A stretch of 15,611 nucleotides of DNA from Brachionus koreanus (Eukaryota; Rotifera; Eurotatoria; Ploima; Brachionidae): NCBI GenBank assembly GCA_016987375.1, contig PJRA01000555.1, positions 658,312 to 673,922 of the forward strand, in the 5' to 3' direction. How positions within the stretch are numbered: position 1 is the stretch's first letter; every line of letters starts with the position of its first letter. The translations under genes were made by a program, and so were the position numbers. Under the pieces are notes generated by a model, which did no database searches, was not told where the DNA came from, and was given only the letters and a program-made list of their open reading frames with translations. Positions 4,571 to 12,417 of this stretch are shown one piece after another.

Positions 4571-5293
4571 CTAAAATCGATAGCAAAAGATGTCAAATGT
4601 GGTCTATTTGCAGACGACTTATGTATTTGGTTCACAAAAAATTCACTAATAGAGCTAAGCAAGGTACTACAAAACGCTGTCTAAACGCGGTTGATCACAT
4701 TAATAAAGATAAAACAAATTATGCTGTTTTTATCAGGGGTGGTCAACGAAACAACTATCTTACTAAATACAATCTAAGGCTATAAATAGATGAGAAAGAA
4801 ATTCGGCTAGTAGCAAACCCGACTTTTCTACGAATTAAAATGGATCCTAAACTTAACTACAAGAAACACTTAGACATGATCAAAAAAAAAGACGGCAATA
4901 AAGAAAAATACTATAAACAAAATTAAAAAAAAACCAGATGGAAAAACACAACAACACTGAGCCTCTTAATCTACAAAAACTATGATAAGATCAATTTACG
5001 ATTATTGCTTCATCATTGCACAAGGTGGATGCCAGAAAATGAACCAACAACTCCAATTACAACAGAACAAAAACTTACGAGCAATTAAACACTTTAAATT
5101 TAAAACTAGAATAGAAAAAATGCACACAGACCTAAACATCGAGCAACTTAAACCTCGTTTTGAAAAAATGCTTAAAAAATTTGCAATCAAAAAGAATGAA
5201 GACTCACTAATCAATGCAGAAATTAGAGAATACAAATCAAATTCAGACAGCATCATAAAGATTAGACAATCAATCCATACCGAAATAAACTAA
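4571..5293 (+). pseudogene. Broken LINE reverse transcriptase, 3' half (Jockey-like)
   Basis: The + strand opens with KSIAKDVKCGLFADDLCIW, which includes the RT palm catalytic box FADD (4607-4618). It continues to ...LSKVLQNAV and a TAA at 4682. A frameshift leads to DHINKDKTNYAVF. A later frame gives NPTFLRIKMDPKLNYKKHLD, the LG(I/V)xLDxxLN-type RT motif. After several more shifts, 4982-5293 is open and reads MIRSIYDYCFIIAQ...LQLQQNKNLRAIKHFKFK, the thumb/C-terminal region, ending in TAA. The endonuclease domain and the first half of the RT are missing, so the copy is 5'-truncated. Multiple stops and shifts make it non-functional. The C-terminal part is homologous to the minus-strand fragment at 5507-5903. 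Jockey-like placement rests on motif style only. Confidence 0.85.
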
Positions 5294-6703: not shown

Positions 6704-9700
6704 TCAAAACAAAACGGGTAGCTTGGCTGTCTTATTGATAACATAGTTGGTGAATTGCTTCAAAAATTTTGGATACTCTCGTTTGTAAACTGTTCTCAGT
6801 ACATTTGCAGGTGCCCATCCACCAGGATTTACTTTAAAACACAAAAAAAGATAAAATTAATTTCAGTTTTTTCACTCGGCTCCAAGCTAGATCAGCTCGG
6901 AAACTAGTTTAATCGAAAAGCAGCTAGCCAGTGATTGAAAAGGCGCATAAAATGTTAATGGTCTTACTAAGAGCGACATAGGTTATTTTGCAAGTAATGT
7001 CACTTCGTTTGGCTACAGACTTCGACTCACAGTCAATACTTGTTTCACAAATCAACGCTACGTTCAAAGTAGCCCTGACTTTGTCGCTCTAAAAGGTCAA
7101 TTAATCAAAAGTAAAGCTAATGTTTGTGCCAGTCTGAAGCTTTTTAGAGAACACTAAGTGAATAAGGAAAAAAATTGTTTTACCCTGAGCCACATAGGTT
7201 ATCTTGCATATAATATTTTTTCGTGGGATGCTTGACTCGTCACTAAACTTGTCCTTGTCAATCACAACAGTTGAGCATATCATGGCCACATTTGCCCATG
7301 CCCTTATCATCGGCTCTTTAACCTAAAAATTTTTTGTTTAGTTCTTTAGTCTTTTAAACTTACGCTTTAGACTGACAAAATAAAAAAAAAAAAAAAGAAG
7401 ATTTATTTCAGGTCTGATGGTAAAAGACTTACTGGTGCAAGTTCATGTGTTGTCGAATAGTTGACCACAATCCAGTCGTTCAAATCATCTTTGGGCACTG
7501 ATCTTATGTGCGACCAAAAGCAGGTGTCGCGCTGCGCCGCCGGCCACACTCTCTTATGCACTTGGTTGAATATGAGTGTGTCGTCGGATAAAGCCTCGAT
7601 CATCCTCGAGCTGTCCAATGTTCCCTCCCATTCCATGCGCACCGATGGGTCCCAAAAGTATTTACACACCTCGTGCCCTGTTACTCCCTACAAGCACAAA
7701 AAATTTCAATTAATTTTTTTTCTCATCTAACGGTCATGTTATTCAATGGCCAATTAGAAAACAAAGACGTTTTATCTTCGTTCAGCTGAGATTAAATAAA
7801 AATCATTGTTTCCTAAATGTATGTATCAAAAATCAAAATTTTTTGGTCCTATCAAATTAGCCTAATTATCGACTGTTAAAAATTGATATAAATGAAATTT
7901 AATGTATGCAGATAATCTACTCATAATGACTGACTCAATCAAAAAAATGGAAGAAGTCCTAATGAAGTGTGAAAATTTTGGACTTCGATCAGAAATCAAG
8001 TTTAATCCAACAAAAACACAAATAATGAGAATCAATGGATCAAATAAAGAAAACAAACATCTAGTCTTATCTGGCGAAAAAATTGAATGGGTAGACAAGA
8101 TTAAATATCTAGGAGTATGGGTAGATGGTAAAAGCTAGAGTAAAGAACACCTAAGAGAACGAAGACTTAACACATGGAGAGCATTCTTCTTACTTAAAAA
8201 AAATCTTGATATCAATAGCAAACACCTAAACCCCCAATTAAAAGCTTACCTACTCAAAACCTTTATAAGGCCAATAATGTTTTATGGTTTGGAAAACTGC
8301 AATATTAGCAAAACCGAAAGAAAAAATATTCAAACAATCGAAGGCTTAATGGTTAAACAGATACTCCAGTTAGGAAAAAGATCGAGGACGACAAACCTTT
8401 TATATGCGCTTAACTTAGAACCGACTGAATCAAAAATAAGGAAAACCAAACTGGGCTTTACAAAAAGACTACTTGAAAATTAATTCACGACCAAAATCCT
8501 TAAAAATAATGAGGAAAAGCTTAATCGACCCAATAGATTCATTAAAGAACTGTGAAATATAAATAGATAAATTAAATAGAGATACAGGATACATATGTTT
8601 AAATGTCTAATGGCTCAGGAAAAAAGGAGGAAATAGTAAGGTAGCAATTACACAGTGGAGAAGGATATTCGATTTACCGTGATTCCGTTTATTCGAAACC
8701 TTCCTTATATTCTTATAAAAATAGGTATATACTATTTACTATTTAATTAATTGGCAAAAGCTTATTGATTTTGTAGGCCAATTAGACATTTAGTTCAACT
8801 CACAACCGCAAGCCTTAAAGCAATCCAGTGATTGGATTATGAGCGGTGCACATTTGATTAAGCAAGTCAGCCCATACCATCACAAAACTATATAATCAGT
8901 CAGTCAAGGCTCAGTAATCAGTCCTCTTTTATTTAGTATATATGTTAATGATATCCCCAAAAGAAACAAAATAAATAATGAATACTCTCTGCTTTTGGCA
9001 GATGATCTAGTTACATTCTTCATTTATAACAAAAAGGGGAACCTTGAAAATAAGATAAATGAATACACCAACGAACTAGAACAATGGCTTATTAAATGGA
9101 AAATGAAGATATCAGTTGAATAGTCGTGTTCTTTTATCTTTTCTAGGCACAAAAAAGAGAGTGGAAATCTAAACATAAAAATTTATGGAAACAGAATAGT
9201 GAGTCAAAAAGAAATCAAGTTTCTTGGCATTAAATTTGATTCAAAGTTAAACTTTAACAAACTGGTAGACGAAATTAAAGAACGCTTTTTTTTGCATTTT
9301 TTTTTAGCTGATATACTTTATTTTATCTTATTCTATTAACTCTATTTTTATATTTTTTCTTTTTTAACTTAACTCTTAAGGAGCTCTAGCTCGGTACAGA
9401 AAACAAATAAATAAGTATATTAATGTATGGATGACAGAGTCGATAAAAAATGGAAAAGGTACTAAAAATATGTGTCATTTGGAATGCGAACTGGAATAAA
9501 AGAATTGCAATAAAAAATTGCCAGGCTTGAACTCTGTGGAGAGCAAGTAGAATGTGTAAAAAAATCATTGGTGATAGAGTGTGGAATCCGATTATGAAAA
9601 AGAATATAAATGCGTTAAATAAGGTCAAAGAGAGTCAAAGAGATTAGAATAAATGAACATGATCAGAAATCTAGTGAAAAATCAGAAAAGATGGATCCTG

Positions 9701-12417
9701 TAGCGGCTTTAAGAGGGAATAGAATCAGAGTTCAAAAAGAAAGCCTCCTTGCTCAAATTTATTTGGCTGCTGCGATTAGTGCCAGACATGCCTTTTTCTC
9801 AATCAGGGTAGTACCGCATTGGTTGTCAATGAAAAAGACTGACAGAGCTCCAGACGGCCAAATAGTATCAGAAATGATGGCCTCAGAAACTTTACATGTT
9901 AGGCATCGTCCCAAGAACTATAATAATTACTAGTGCTAGTGTTTAAATTAAATTTAATAATGGTTTAATTTATATAAATAGGCAAAAAAAAAGAATAATT
10001 TGTTAAAATGAAAAGTAAAAAAAAATGATCTCAATTTCATCGTATTTCTAAAAATTTAATAAATAAATAATTAATGAAACTTTAGGAACTCTCAAAAATT
10101 TTTTTTATACTCCCTCCTATTTACTGATGATCTAGTTACTTTTTTCATTTATGCAAAAATGATAATCTAAAAAGTAAGATGAATAGATACTAAGGTGAAT
10201 TAAGTATATAAGTAGCTTTGCATGCGGAAAATGAAGATATTAGCCTTGCTGAATAAATTTTTCAAGGAAAAATAAAGAAAAAACAGAAAAAGAAAAATCA
10301 CTGGACTAGTTAACTAACTAAACCCTGAGCGTTTAAGATAGAATGGAGCATAAATAGCTGCTCCTAAACGTCTAACGAAGAGATCGGATAGACGGGCCCA
10401 AGGATACTAATGTAAACATTACAGATGTAATTCAAATTCAGTTGTCCGTTATATTCAAATTATTTCATTAGCCTTTATACCCATTGATCCTTAGACTAGT
10501 GGAAGAATATAAAGCAGAAAGAATTTAGATAAGTGATAATGTCTTCTGGTCTCAAATGAAGCAAGGGTCTTTAATTCAATTATTTCACTAATAGAAAACA
10601 AATAGTTAACTCAAATTTGATGTACCACAAGGTTCAGTTAGCTTCTTTTTTGTTAGCTAGTCAGCTAGTAAGCTAGGTTTGCCTCATCTTTCAAGAAAAT
10701 TTAAATGTTTGCCGATGACACAACAATTAGTCATTCATTCAGATAAAGATTTTGAACGTGTTTAAATAAATTTTTTGAATTTCATTAAAAATCTCATTAA
10801 TTGATGTTCTTATATGACAAGATTTAATTTGCATAATTTGGAAATGAAGCTGAAAAAAAAAATAAAAATAAAATTTAATTTAAATATTTCAATTTTGACC
10901 ATTTTAAAATAAGAATAAAAAAAATTTTTTTTTTTTTGGAGAGATATACAAGCAAACCAAAACTTCTAATAGTATTATCATTTTAATTTTATCTATTTCT
11001 TTTTTGTTTTTATCTAAAGTAGCCTTAGCTATATACAGATAAACGAATTTAAAAAAAAACATACCTTAACAGAGTGAACAGCTTTTAATGGGTCAAGGAC
11101 AATTCCATTTTCCTCTAGTTCACGTCTGTAGACCCTCATTTCGCCATCAGACGCAAGCAATTCCCACACATTCGAGTTCAAATCATCGACTAGATCAAAT
11201 TTCAAATGCTCTTGAACAATTTTCTCTATTTCGTCGCTGAGACGGTGACTGGGCACCGGCTTTAGCTCGGGCAATTTGGTCAAGCTCTCGAACGCTTTAA
11301 CGCGTCTTTCCTCTTCTTTTTCAAGCGTGTCCAATGTGCTGTCAATTGCATCGAAAAATTCATCTTCTTTCATGTTACTGTGCGGTCCTTCCTCAAAGTC
11401 CGGACCAGCAATTATAATCTGTTGTCGTTTACCGCCTTTTGACATCTCTTTAACTTGCTCTTCCAATTTTTTGCGTTTTTCAATTTCCTTGAAAAAAATT
11501 AAAAAATTTTTTTTTTTTTTTAAATTTTTTAAATAAAAATTTTTGCCAACCCTGTCTAATTTTTTTTTCAAAAATTCCTCTCTCTGCTGCATTAGCTCAA
11601 TGCAATGGGACAAATTGTGCAAAATGCCGGCAGTGGTTGCTTTGAACGTGTATGCCTCTCCCTTGAAGTCGACGGCCATAGCAGCATGGTCCTGTATGCG
11701 AGCTCGGCTGAGCTCTTTGACGGGCGGGGGACCGTGGACACCGTGGCCAACGTCCTCTTCGTCGTCGCTCTCGGCCAGCTTTTTCTCGAGCTCGTTGTGA
11801 TAGGGCTCGAAGCCATTGGTGGTCGAATTGGCACATGCGTCAAAATATGTCTGCAATGTTTCGACTTGACGGCACAGTATTTCCTTGAAAGTGTCCATTT
11901 CGTCTAGTTTTTCCTTGAGGCCGAGAGCGCGCTTGTGCGATCCGTTCGATTGAACGCTCAGACTCGAGTTTAGACTGAGCAACGAGCCGTGCCGGCGCAG
12001 ACTGGTCTGGCTGCCGTAGCCGGACTCGGCCCGATGCTCCTCGAGTATTTCCAGCCAGCGCTGACGCTCCTCGGTCGAGCTAGCCCTCAAGTACCAGCAG
12101 CAGTCGTTGACGCGTATGTCAAATCGGCAGTCGTCCAGCTCGTGCGGCACTATGACCGACTGTTTTAGCGCGATGGCTCCGCGACACCCGTACTGTGTCT
12201 CTGTCTGGCTCTTGTAGTAGCTGAGCACCCCGTCTTTCAGCACTATGTAACGCTCTTGCCATCCGTGGATGTAGTTGGTCCATTTGTGTAAGTTGCTGGC
12301 CAGGTCGCTGCAACGCTGCTGCTGGTGTTGGTTCGGCTGCTGATGCTCGTCTTCGTTGTTGCTTGAATGGGCTTCATCCTCGTCCGATATATTCACAACC
12401 GGCGCCTCATTAGTCAT
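6704..12417 (-). CDS. CERT1: Ceramide transfer protein (CERT / StAR-related lipid transfer 11)
   Basis: Exons: 12417-11551, 11487-11065, 7687-7433, 7322-7184 (4a) and 6831-6704; 603 residues, or 597 with alternative exon 4b (6968-7088); human is 598. It carries ceramide from ER to trans-Golgi for sphingomyelin synthesis. Order: acidic, Gln/His-rich N-terminus (1-40); PH domain about 42-130 for Golgi PI4P ([35 protein letters not shown]); serine-repeat motif about 139-157 ([16 protein letters not shown]), the phosphorylation switch; conserved middle ([23 protein letters not shown]) and coiled coil; FFAT motif EFFDAID at 332-338 for VAP binding; START domain from about 380 to the end. Residues equivalent to human R442, E446, Q467, N504, Y553, W473 and W562 are present. 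The C-terminus is KTAKLPVLF. All joins match the human register (DR|EIEK, HSVK|GVTGHE, AP|VKEP, AQ|VNPGGW). The ATG at 12417 is chosen because the frame further upstream has no other ATG. Confidence 0.96.
6832..6967 (-). other. Intron between CERT exons 4b and 5, with a GC-richer block
   Basis: Most introns here are nearly pure A/T. This one carries a mixed-composition block (about 6875-6945) with several AGCT/CTAG-containing short repeats, such as AAGCTAGATCAGCTCGG and AGCAGCTAGCC. It could form local RNA structure or hold splice-regulatory elements for the choice between 4a and 4b. It is not an exon: no frame gives CERT-like residues. Confidence 0.35.
6968..7088 (-). CDS. CERT1: CERT alternative START-domain exon 4b (tandem homologue of exon 4a)
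   Basis: This 121-base segment lies inside what would be the 6832-7183 intron. On the minus strand it is flanked by a good acceptor (ACCTTTTAG, AG at 7090-7089) and donor (GTAAGA from 6967). It reads [19 protein letters not shown], then [14 protein letters not shown]. Exon 4a (7184-7322, 139 bases) reads [20 protein letters not shown] and [13 protein letters not shown] in the matching positions. Both start in phase 0 and end one base into a codon, so either fits between exon 3 (...HELAP) and exon 5 (TA AAT CCT...), giving QVNPGGW or LINPGGW. Using both or neither breaks the frame. The segment corresponds to the central part of the human START domain, ending at the pocket Tyr553, which both versions keep. 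4b is two residues shorter before VRA and four shorter in the loop; its loop is closer in length to the human one. Confidence 0.88.
7861..8651 (+). pseudogene. Broken LINE reverse transcriptase, RT palm to C-terminus with 3' tail
   Basis: From 7902 the + strand is one frame for about 200 codons with a single internal TAG (8136-8138), then a TAA at 8481-8483. It starts at the RT catalytic box, here YADN instead of YADD (7905-7916), so the second catalytic Asp is lost. It continues with [48 protein letters not shown] and [20 protein letters not shown]. Before the box, a frame offset by one base reads [13 protein letters not shown], indicating a 1-base deletion just before LMYAD. After the stop the frame goes on with [19 protein letters not shown]. 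The 3' part (8596-8651) matches the tail at 3450-3525. The fragment is 5'-truncated and sits antisense in the large CERT intron. It looks RTE/L2-like, but the clade is not certain. Confidence 0.88.
8896..9288 (+). pseudogene. LINE reverse transcriptase fragment with a single nonsense codon (Jockey-like)
   Basis: The frame 8896-9288 reads [20 protein letters not shown] (the PQGSxxSPxLFxxYxND box of non-LTR RTs), then [15 protein letters not shown] with the catalytic LADD at 8995-9006, then [19 protein letters not shown] at 9121-9123 interrupts it, after which the same frame continues [11 protein letters not shown] and [20 protein letters not shown]. It stops making sense at about 9288 in a T-rich run. 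Both ends are missing (no endonuclease domain, no C-terminal region). With one stop in about 130 codons and no shift, it is among the better preserved RT pieces here. A diverged second copy of its palm segment lies at 10108-10270. Confidence 0.87.
9450..9640 (+). pseudogene. Possible LINE reverse transcriptase thumb fragment
   Basis: One + frame reads [16 protein letters not shown], a stop, [36 protein letters not shown] and a stop. It resembles the LNW..HI....KA...LW..RR..GK.WGL.P....W.Y segment of I/Jockey-type reverse transcriptases, but the match is loose and I could not extend it. The opposite strand (9628-9386) is open only because of this composition. Confidence 0.4.
9619..9933 (+). 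CDS. Unidentified open reading frame in the large CERT intron
   Basis: The frame is open from 9619 to a TAG at 9931-9933 (104 codons); the first ATG is at 9691, giving 80 residues. From there it reads [60 protein letters not shown] and a basic end ([12 protein letters not shown]). Codon composition and GC are clearly higher than in the surroundings, as in real or recently real coding sequence. I do not recognise the family. There is no signal peptide, no obvious membrane segment and no zinc-binding pattern. It follows a possible LINE fragment on the same strand, so it may be part of a mobile element; a nested gene or a captured exon are alternatives. No splice signals that would join it to CERT are possible, since it lies on the other strand. 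Confidence 0.4.
   Translation: MRSKRVKEIRINEHDQKSSEKSEKMDPVAALRGNRIRVQKESLLAQIYLAAAISARHAFFSIRVVPHWLSMKKTDRAPDGQIVSEMMASETLHVRHRPKNYNNY
10108..10270 (+). pseudogene. LINE reverse transcriptase fragment, diverged copy of 8981-9150
   Basis: [17 protein letters not shown] at 10108 parallels [17 protein letters not shown] in the copy at 8981. The catalytic box is changed to FTDD (10120-10131). Downstream DNA stays alignable: AGTAAGATGAATAGATAC against AATAAGATAAATGAATAC, and GGAAAATGAAGATATTAGC against GGAAAATGAAGATATCAGT. It carries several frameshifts and stops, and is clearly older or more decayed than its relative. Confidence 0.7.
10271..10569 (+). other. Intron stretch between LINE remnants, content unclear
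   Basis: Mixed composition with short open stretches (for example [18 protein letters not shown] in one + frame around 10420-10470). It may be LINE-derived, but I can assign no motif. Confidence 0.25.
10570..10850 (+). pseudogene. Broken LINE reverse transcriptase with VPQGSV and FADD boxes
   Basis: In shifting + frames the region reads [12 protein letters not shown] (10575-10615), then KFDVPQGSV (10616-10639), then [12 protein letters not shown] (10705-10740) and NKFFEFH. The order S/NYxxNRKQxV - GVPQGSV - LFADDTTIS is the palm core of CR1/Jockey-type non-LTR reverse transcriptases. The stretch between PQGS and FADD is shorter than normal and full of stops, so it is an old, internally deleted copy. 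The variant FADDTTIS differs from the other RT boxes in the window, so this is a separate family. Confidence 0.72.

Follow-up and report, generated by a model that had tools for sequence, protein, structure and literature searches.

A probable pair of mutually exclusive homologous exons in the START domain of a rotifer ceramide transfer protein

Mutually exclusive homologous exons are a well-known class. In the tally given in PMC5740500, the frame-shift kind accounts for 20 of the 28 orthologous genes with validated mutually exclusive pairs. CERT moves ceramide from the ER to the Golgi, and the human splice forms described in the same source are CERT, CERTL (which has 26 more residues before the START domain), and a predicted form of 752 residues (PMC8875512). 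Here we consider a rotifer CERT gene with two versions of exon 4, 4a and 4b, within the START domain. The original prediction held that no CERT with such a switch had been described. The literature agrees, in that we found none in open-licence PMC papers; nor did we find, among those papers, one on a Brachionus ceramide transfer protein. For START domains together with mutually exclusive exons, the one paper found there was a plant review. We know of no comparable exchange in another START protein. As argued below, 4a and 4b are most probably (roughly 90%) an expressed, conserved, either-or exon pair; any effect on lipids lies outside this figure.

The window (the whole 15,611-nt stretch of DNA that we analysed) carries on its minus strand one intact CERT gene that encodes both forms of exon 4 (Table 1). 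The protein has 603 residues with 4a and 597 with 4b, and both isoforms pass the Pfam cut-offs for PF00169 (PH) and PF01852 (START). When the START part was compared to solved structures, all four distinct PDB sequences with E ≤ 0.001 were CERT, and the human CERT START domain (PDB 2e3m, 5zyg, 5jjd) matched the 4a isoform at E = 2.7e-60 and the 4b isoform at E = 1.6e-57. The host is a Brachionus-like rotifer, and the closest named protein among the matches listed is P0002, the ceramide transfer protein of Brachionus calyciflorus, which is 82.5% identical to the 4a isoform over 607 columns. A 19-letter string in the translation of exon 1 is what we take to be the serine-rich repeat of CERT, and 11 letters of exon 2 are, presumably, an FFAT-like motif, given their likeness to human CERT.

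Table 1. Positions of the CERT exons and related features in the window, in the order of transcription.
Feature	Position	Strand	Content
CERT exon 1	11551..12417	-	start codon, PH domain (PF00169 at residues 43-126), presumed serine-rich repeat
CERT exon 2	11065..11487	-	presumed FFAT-like motif; START begins at residue 392
CERT exon 3	7433..7687	-	START; residues aligned to human R442, E446, Q467, N504; phase 0 end
Possible pairing partner in intron 3	7364..7380	-	could pair with 7140-7124 of the 4a-4b intron, looping out 4a (weak candidate)
CERT exon 4a	7184..7322	-	139 nt = 46 codons + 1 base
Intron 4a-4b	7089..7183	-	95 nt
CERT exon 4b	6968..7088	-	121 nt = 40 codons + 1 base
CERT exon 5	6705..6831	-	NPGGW loop, last helix, stop; begins in phase 1

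Other features of the window are as follows. Intron 1 (11488-11550, minus strand, 63 nt) is in frame and lacks a stop codon, so its retention would add 21 residues. Intron 2 (3.4 kb) carries two reverse-transcriptase fragments (PF00078) at 7896-8138 and 8896-9123, on the plus strand and thus opposite to CERT. The neighbouring gene, at 1593-2540 on the minus strand, belongs to the phosphorylase superfamily (PF01048, E = 1e-46) and is presumably a purine nucleoside phosphorylase. An open frame of 107 residues at 4970-5293 (plus strand) resembles DUF603 at 19.7 bits, which is below the cut-off of 22.6; it is likely to be a chance likeness or derived from a repeat.

The coordinates and lengths of the two exons, their phases (0 in and 1 out), and their splice dinucleotides were all as originally predicted, and the two are homologous, as the prediction also held. 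The alignment score of 4a with 4b is 67, as compared to a mean of -4.4 (standard deviation 8.3) for shuffled versions of 4b, and none of 2,000 shuffles reached 67. In searches within the window, 4a as the query found 4b at E = 3e-6 and 4b found 4a at E = 2e-6; the next best matches were at just E = 0.38 and 0.72, so we see no third copy of exon 4 in the window. Overall, the two exons have similar sequence, similar length, and the same reading frame, as expected for mutually exclusive homologous exons.

The prediction that using both exons or neither would break the frame also held, and both combinations contain stop codons. If 4a and 4b are both skipped, a stop codon falls right where exon 3 meets exon 5, and the product would have a truncated START domain. 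If 4a is joined to 4b, there is a stop within 4b, 77 nt upstream of the junction of 4b with exon 5. By the usual rule for nonsense-mediated decay (50 nt), that transcript should be open to decay. Thus, wrong combinations of exons may be discarded through frame shifts. An open frame of 40 codons is weak evidence by itself: among overlapping stretches of that length from both strands of intron 2, 451 of 6,514 (7%) were open.

A second copy of the locus bears on whether 4b is in use. We searched the genome (83 Mb in 92 contigs) and found this copy at C26:90000-102000. It is about 96% identical, with three long blocks at 95-97% and a block of 84 bases at 90%, and the neighbouring phosphorylase gene is matched too. 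It retains exons 1, 2, 3, and 5 as well as both forms of exon 4, with 4a and 4b in tandem. Matches to intron 2 are confined to small parts of it, and intron 1 of the second copy is likewise open (18 residues). Another stretch 35 kb further along, C26:130204-135080, matches C19 again, in order, at 91 and 95%. When we searched the genome with a piece at C26:20,001, it matched only itself and repeats. For another START gene, we found a single full copy along with weaker partial likenesses. The copy on C26 may stem from a segmental duplication or may be an unmerged haplotype, in which an allele has stayed in the assembly.

Between the two copies, 4b has a single difference, which is synonymous, and its frame and splice sites are intact in both. 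Exon 4a differs at 5 of 139 positions (four synonymous changes and one nonsynonymous). Across exons 2 to 5, we counted 26 synonymous and three nonsynonymous differences; exon 1, which has a 3-base gap between the copies, was excluded from this count. The intron between 4a and 4b has no substitutions in 95 positions (there is one indel in a run of T); the other two short introns in the comparison have 15 in 246 (P = 0.0025). Together, 4b and this intron have one substitution in 216 positions versus 30 in 765 for the remaining aligned region (P = 0.0017, for a stretch that was picked after the alignment had been seen). For 4b alone, the comparison with other coding bases was not significant (1 of 121 versus 15 of 519, P = 0.13). 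Gene conversion could also cause these low counts.

These data can be set against the view that 4b is a decaying, unused duplicate (a pseudo-exon). It is true that 4a aligns better with human CERT than 4b does (scores of 92 and 76, respectively) and that P0002, the one named Brachionus protein, has a segment of the 4a type. But neither the frame nor the splice sites of 4b are disrupted in either copy in this genome, the neighbouring intron is without substitutions, and three other rotifer-like records carry 4b-type segments in frames without interruption. Because the 4b-type segments of the four records group together (see below) and the 4b of the second copy is intact, we consider a dead exon to be extremely unlikely.

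The relatives come from protein searches that gave 241 different proteins (the best 120 of 1,727 matches, 8 of 8, and the best 120 of 287). Among these 241 proteins from the matches listed, three are clearly of the 4b type, which we recognised by a lead-in that is shorter by two residues, the triplet CET, and YVAL or YVAF: P0001 (a 615-residue frame on a contig of 2,105 nt), P0213 (104 residues, on a contig of 926 nt), and P0227. All three are metagenome proteins from records without a transcript label. The segment of P0227, with 61 residues, exceeds the other 4b-type segments (40, 41, and 44 residues), and its hairpin loop is longer. P0011 was considered as a further member; it shares the short lead-in and CET, yet it falls outside the 4b group in the tree, and we did not count it. 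A search restricted to the 4b segment gave eight matches, all of CERT length (590-631 residues), from five molluscs, a wasp relative (Orussus), and two from Adineta. The 4b-type relatives were not among these eight, probably because that search needs shared exact words.

Two of the 4b-type proteins have a close counterpart of the 4a type. P0213 and P0010 (620 residues) are identical at all 59 of the flanking residues that we compared (18 of 18 on the N-terminal side and 41 of 41 on the C-terminal side), and inside exon 4 they are identical at 16 of 41 aligned residues (39%). Similarly, the flanks of P0227 and P0005 are identical at 29 of 31 residues on the N-terminal side and at 41 of 41 on the C-terminal side. 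In the window, 4b ends with A and 4a with G, so the codon that spans the last junction would specify I after 4b and V after 4a. P0227 (I) and P0005 (V) follow this pattern; P0213 and P0010 both have V. The occurrence of either segment between identical flanks, in uninterrupted frames, supports the mutually exclusive use that was originally predicted.

The frames of P0001, P0213, and P0227 pass through the exon junctions uninterrupted. If genomic DNA were read through the GT donor of exon 3, then the final AP of the exon should be followed by V (a GTN codon). This is what we saw in 13 of 13 shorter frames, which were picked by pattern (from P0122-P0241 only, without "NPG" and with a given spelling from W to AP); the pattern missed P0231, a partial bdelloid protein that continues into exon 4. 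Because the three 4b-type frames cross the junctions, unlike the frames that read through the donor, they are probably spliced transcripts.

Alternatively, the two types in the relatives might be encoded by separate paralogous genes, and the tandem pair in the window would then be independent or ancestral. The metagenome proteins are not assignable to a locus, the window's genome does have the locus twice, and two very young paralogues could give flanks that are identical at the protein level. On the other hand, both genomic copies here hold both exons in tandem, and two old paralogues are hardly to be expected given that P0010 and P0213 are identical at every flanking residue compared. We therefore view separate paralogues as very unlikely.

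We built trees of exon 4 and of its flanks from 35 rows (33 of the 241 proteins and the two isoforms from the window), with 200 bootstraps. The rows are rotifer-like proteins, chosen by eye, and a few others. We omitted P0014 and P0122, whose START segments are the same as those of P0013 and P0003; P0135, P0144, P0147, and P0160, which resemble P0016 or P0020; the majority of the bdelloid rows; and almost all other animals. In the exon-4 tree (46 columns), 4b from the window groups with P0001, P0213, and P0227 on one side of a branch supported at 96/86, which was recovered in 97% of the bootstraps; the 4a and 4b labels were assigned by eye from the same segments that this tree uses. In the flank tree (132 columns), the same four rows require four changes, and a single change sufficed in none of the 200 bootstraps. 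There, P0213 lies beside P0010 and P0227 beside P0005, P0001 has no partner, and 4b from the window lies beside its own 4a by construction. Since the 4b segments group while their flanks scatter them, we conclude that both exon types probably predate the split of these rotifers and have both been retained. A single tandem duplication of the exon, no later than the common ancestor of the sampled Brachionus-like rotifers, would account for this. The duplication might also be older than all rotifers: P0011, from another branch, has two of the 4b traits, but it is outside the group.

We next considered how the choice between the exons might be made. We found no support in this gene for the devices of the OGDH type, namely an intron that is too short or a distant branch point with a long AG-free zone. 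A too-short intron is unsupported because, at 95 nt, the 4a-4b intron exceeds intron 1 of this gene (63 nt). The 4a-4b intron has AGs at 67, 53, 47, and 30 nt from its end, and the AG at 30 nt makes a distant branch point unlikely and leaves the OGDH device unsupported. We also asked about RNA pairing across 4a, in the style of a docking site and selector, which would add to the either-or reading rather than compete with it. Between introns 3 and 4a-4b, 15 of 17 positions can pair (7380-7364 with 7124-7140), including one G-U, and both stretches are unchanged in the near-identical second copy. The energy of this duplex was matched by 23 of 1,000 shuffles, but its ungapped helix was matched by 17 of 200. 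Intron 3 paired with the intron after 4b no better than chance (838 of 1,000 and 108 of 200 shuffles), and when the latter intron was set against the 4a-4b intron instead, 51 of 1,000 and 143 of 200 shuffles did as well. Pairing as the enforcing mechanism is therefore doubtful. For the either-or pair, the best-supported part of the exclusion is the removal of wrong products by frame shift, as judged from the sequence.

As for the protein, exon 4 is one beta-hairpin of the START domain in AlphaFold models of relatives. We used P0010 for the 4a type and P0001 for the 4b type; these are relatives and not the isoforms of the window, and the models have modest mean pLDDTs of 70 and 69, respectively. 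Exon 4 (residues 533-578 of P0010 and 533-573 of P0001) spans two strands and their loop, with strands modelled at 540-552 and 569-580 in P0010 and at 539-550 and 564-575 in P0001. Across residues 531 to 580, mean confidence by blocks of ten residues ranges from 72 to 90 in P0010 and from 66 to 91 in P0001. The START domains of both models align to that of human CERT with a TM score of about 0.9 by target length, and in a fold search with these two proteins, ranks 1-19 were all CERT entries.

The original prediction that the ligand-contacting tyrosine is kept was borne out: the residue aligned to human Y553, which we take to be that tyrosine, lies in exon 4 and is present in both 4a and 4b. 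The residue aligned to Q467, presumably also a ceramide contact, lies in exon 3 and is kept. Human R442 and E446 are named as ceramide contacts in PMC3127847 and N504 in PMC8875512; in the alignment to human CERT, all three are conserved in the rotifer protein, within exon 3. Each splice form may be a working CERT that recognises the head group in the same way and differs in the hairpin beside the cavity.

Within the hairpin, the position aligned to human I523 may face the cavity. It is alanine in 17 of 18 4a-type rows (for P0035, the residue was read by eye) and valine in the other, P0003. Each of the four 4b-type rows has a different residue here (L, M, V, and I), and the residues of the six non-rotifer-like rows are M, M, F, M, L, and I. 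Alanine is also found in three bdelloid rows and in two of four other rotifer-like rows. At the position aligned to human Q530, all four 4b-type rows have E, as do all three bdelloid rows, and none of the 18 4a-type rows does. Exchanging the hairpin may alter acyl-chain fit or gating, and it might tune them by stage or tissue; possible effects on lipid specificity, loop opening, or tissue use were suggested in the original prediction. More speculatively, the splicing switch could re-wall the ceramide cavity, with mostly alanine at the 523-aligned position in 4a and a bulkier residue in 4b, as the non-rotifer rows also have. The two forms would then favour different chain lengths or related lipids and would serve differing life stages (for example, asexual growth, the sexual phase, or the production of resting eggs). 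We consider this possible but not probable; it is weakened by the alanine that the bdelloids share and by the valine that is found in one 4a row and in one 4b row.

A natural and conserved exchange of one START hairpin, with the rest of the protein identical, would show that splicing can tune lipid traffic. The two forms would also be well suited to finding out what section of the cavity wall sets the choice of lipid. Brachionus rotifers can be maintained in laboratory culture and switch clearly between life stages, which makes testing practical.

Compared to described systems, the pair resembles the human homologous exon pairs of PMC5740500 and exons 4a and 4b of OGDH, as presented in PMC7969005, in being in tandem, of similar length, and identical in phase. 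As in the pairs described there, the exons lie within a folded domain and their joint use shifts the frame. Besides being another gene, OGDH differs in its branch points, which are distant according to PMC7969005, and in its long AG-free zone; the 4a-4b intron here has an AG at 30 nt from its end. The START domain of human CERT (2e3m, 5zyg, 5jjd) aligns with either isoform; the lead-in of 4b is two residues shorter than that of 4a, and the hairpin loop has diverged. Finally, PMC8875512 describes human CERT variants that belong to the same family and also arise by alternative splicing, but those variants add residues outside the START domain, while here a hairpin of the START domain itself appears to be swapped.
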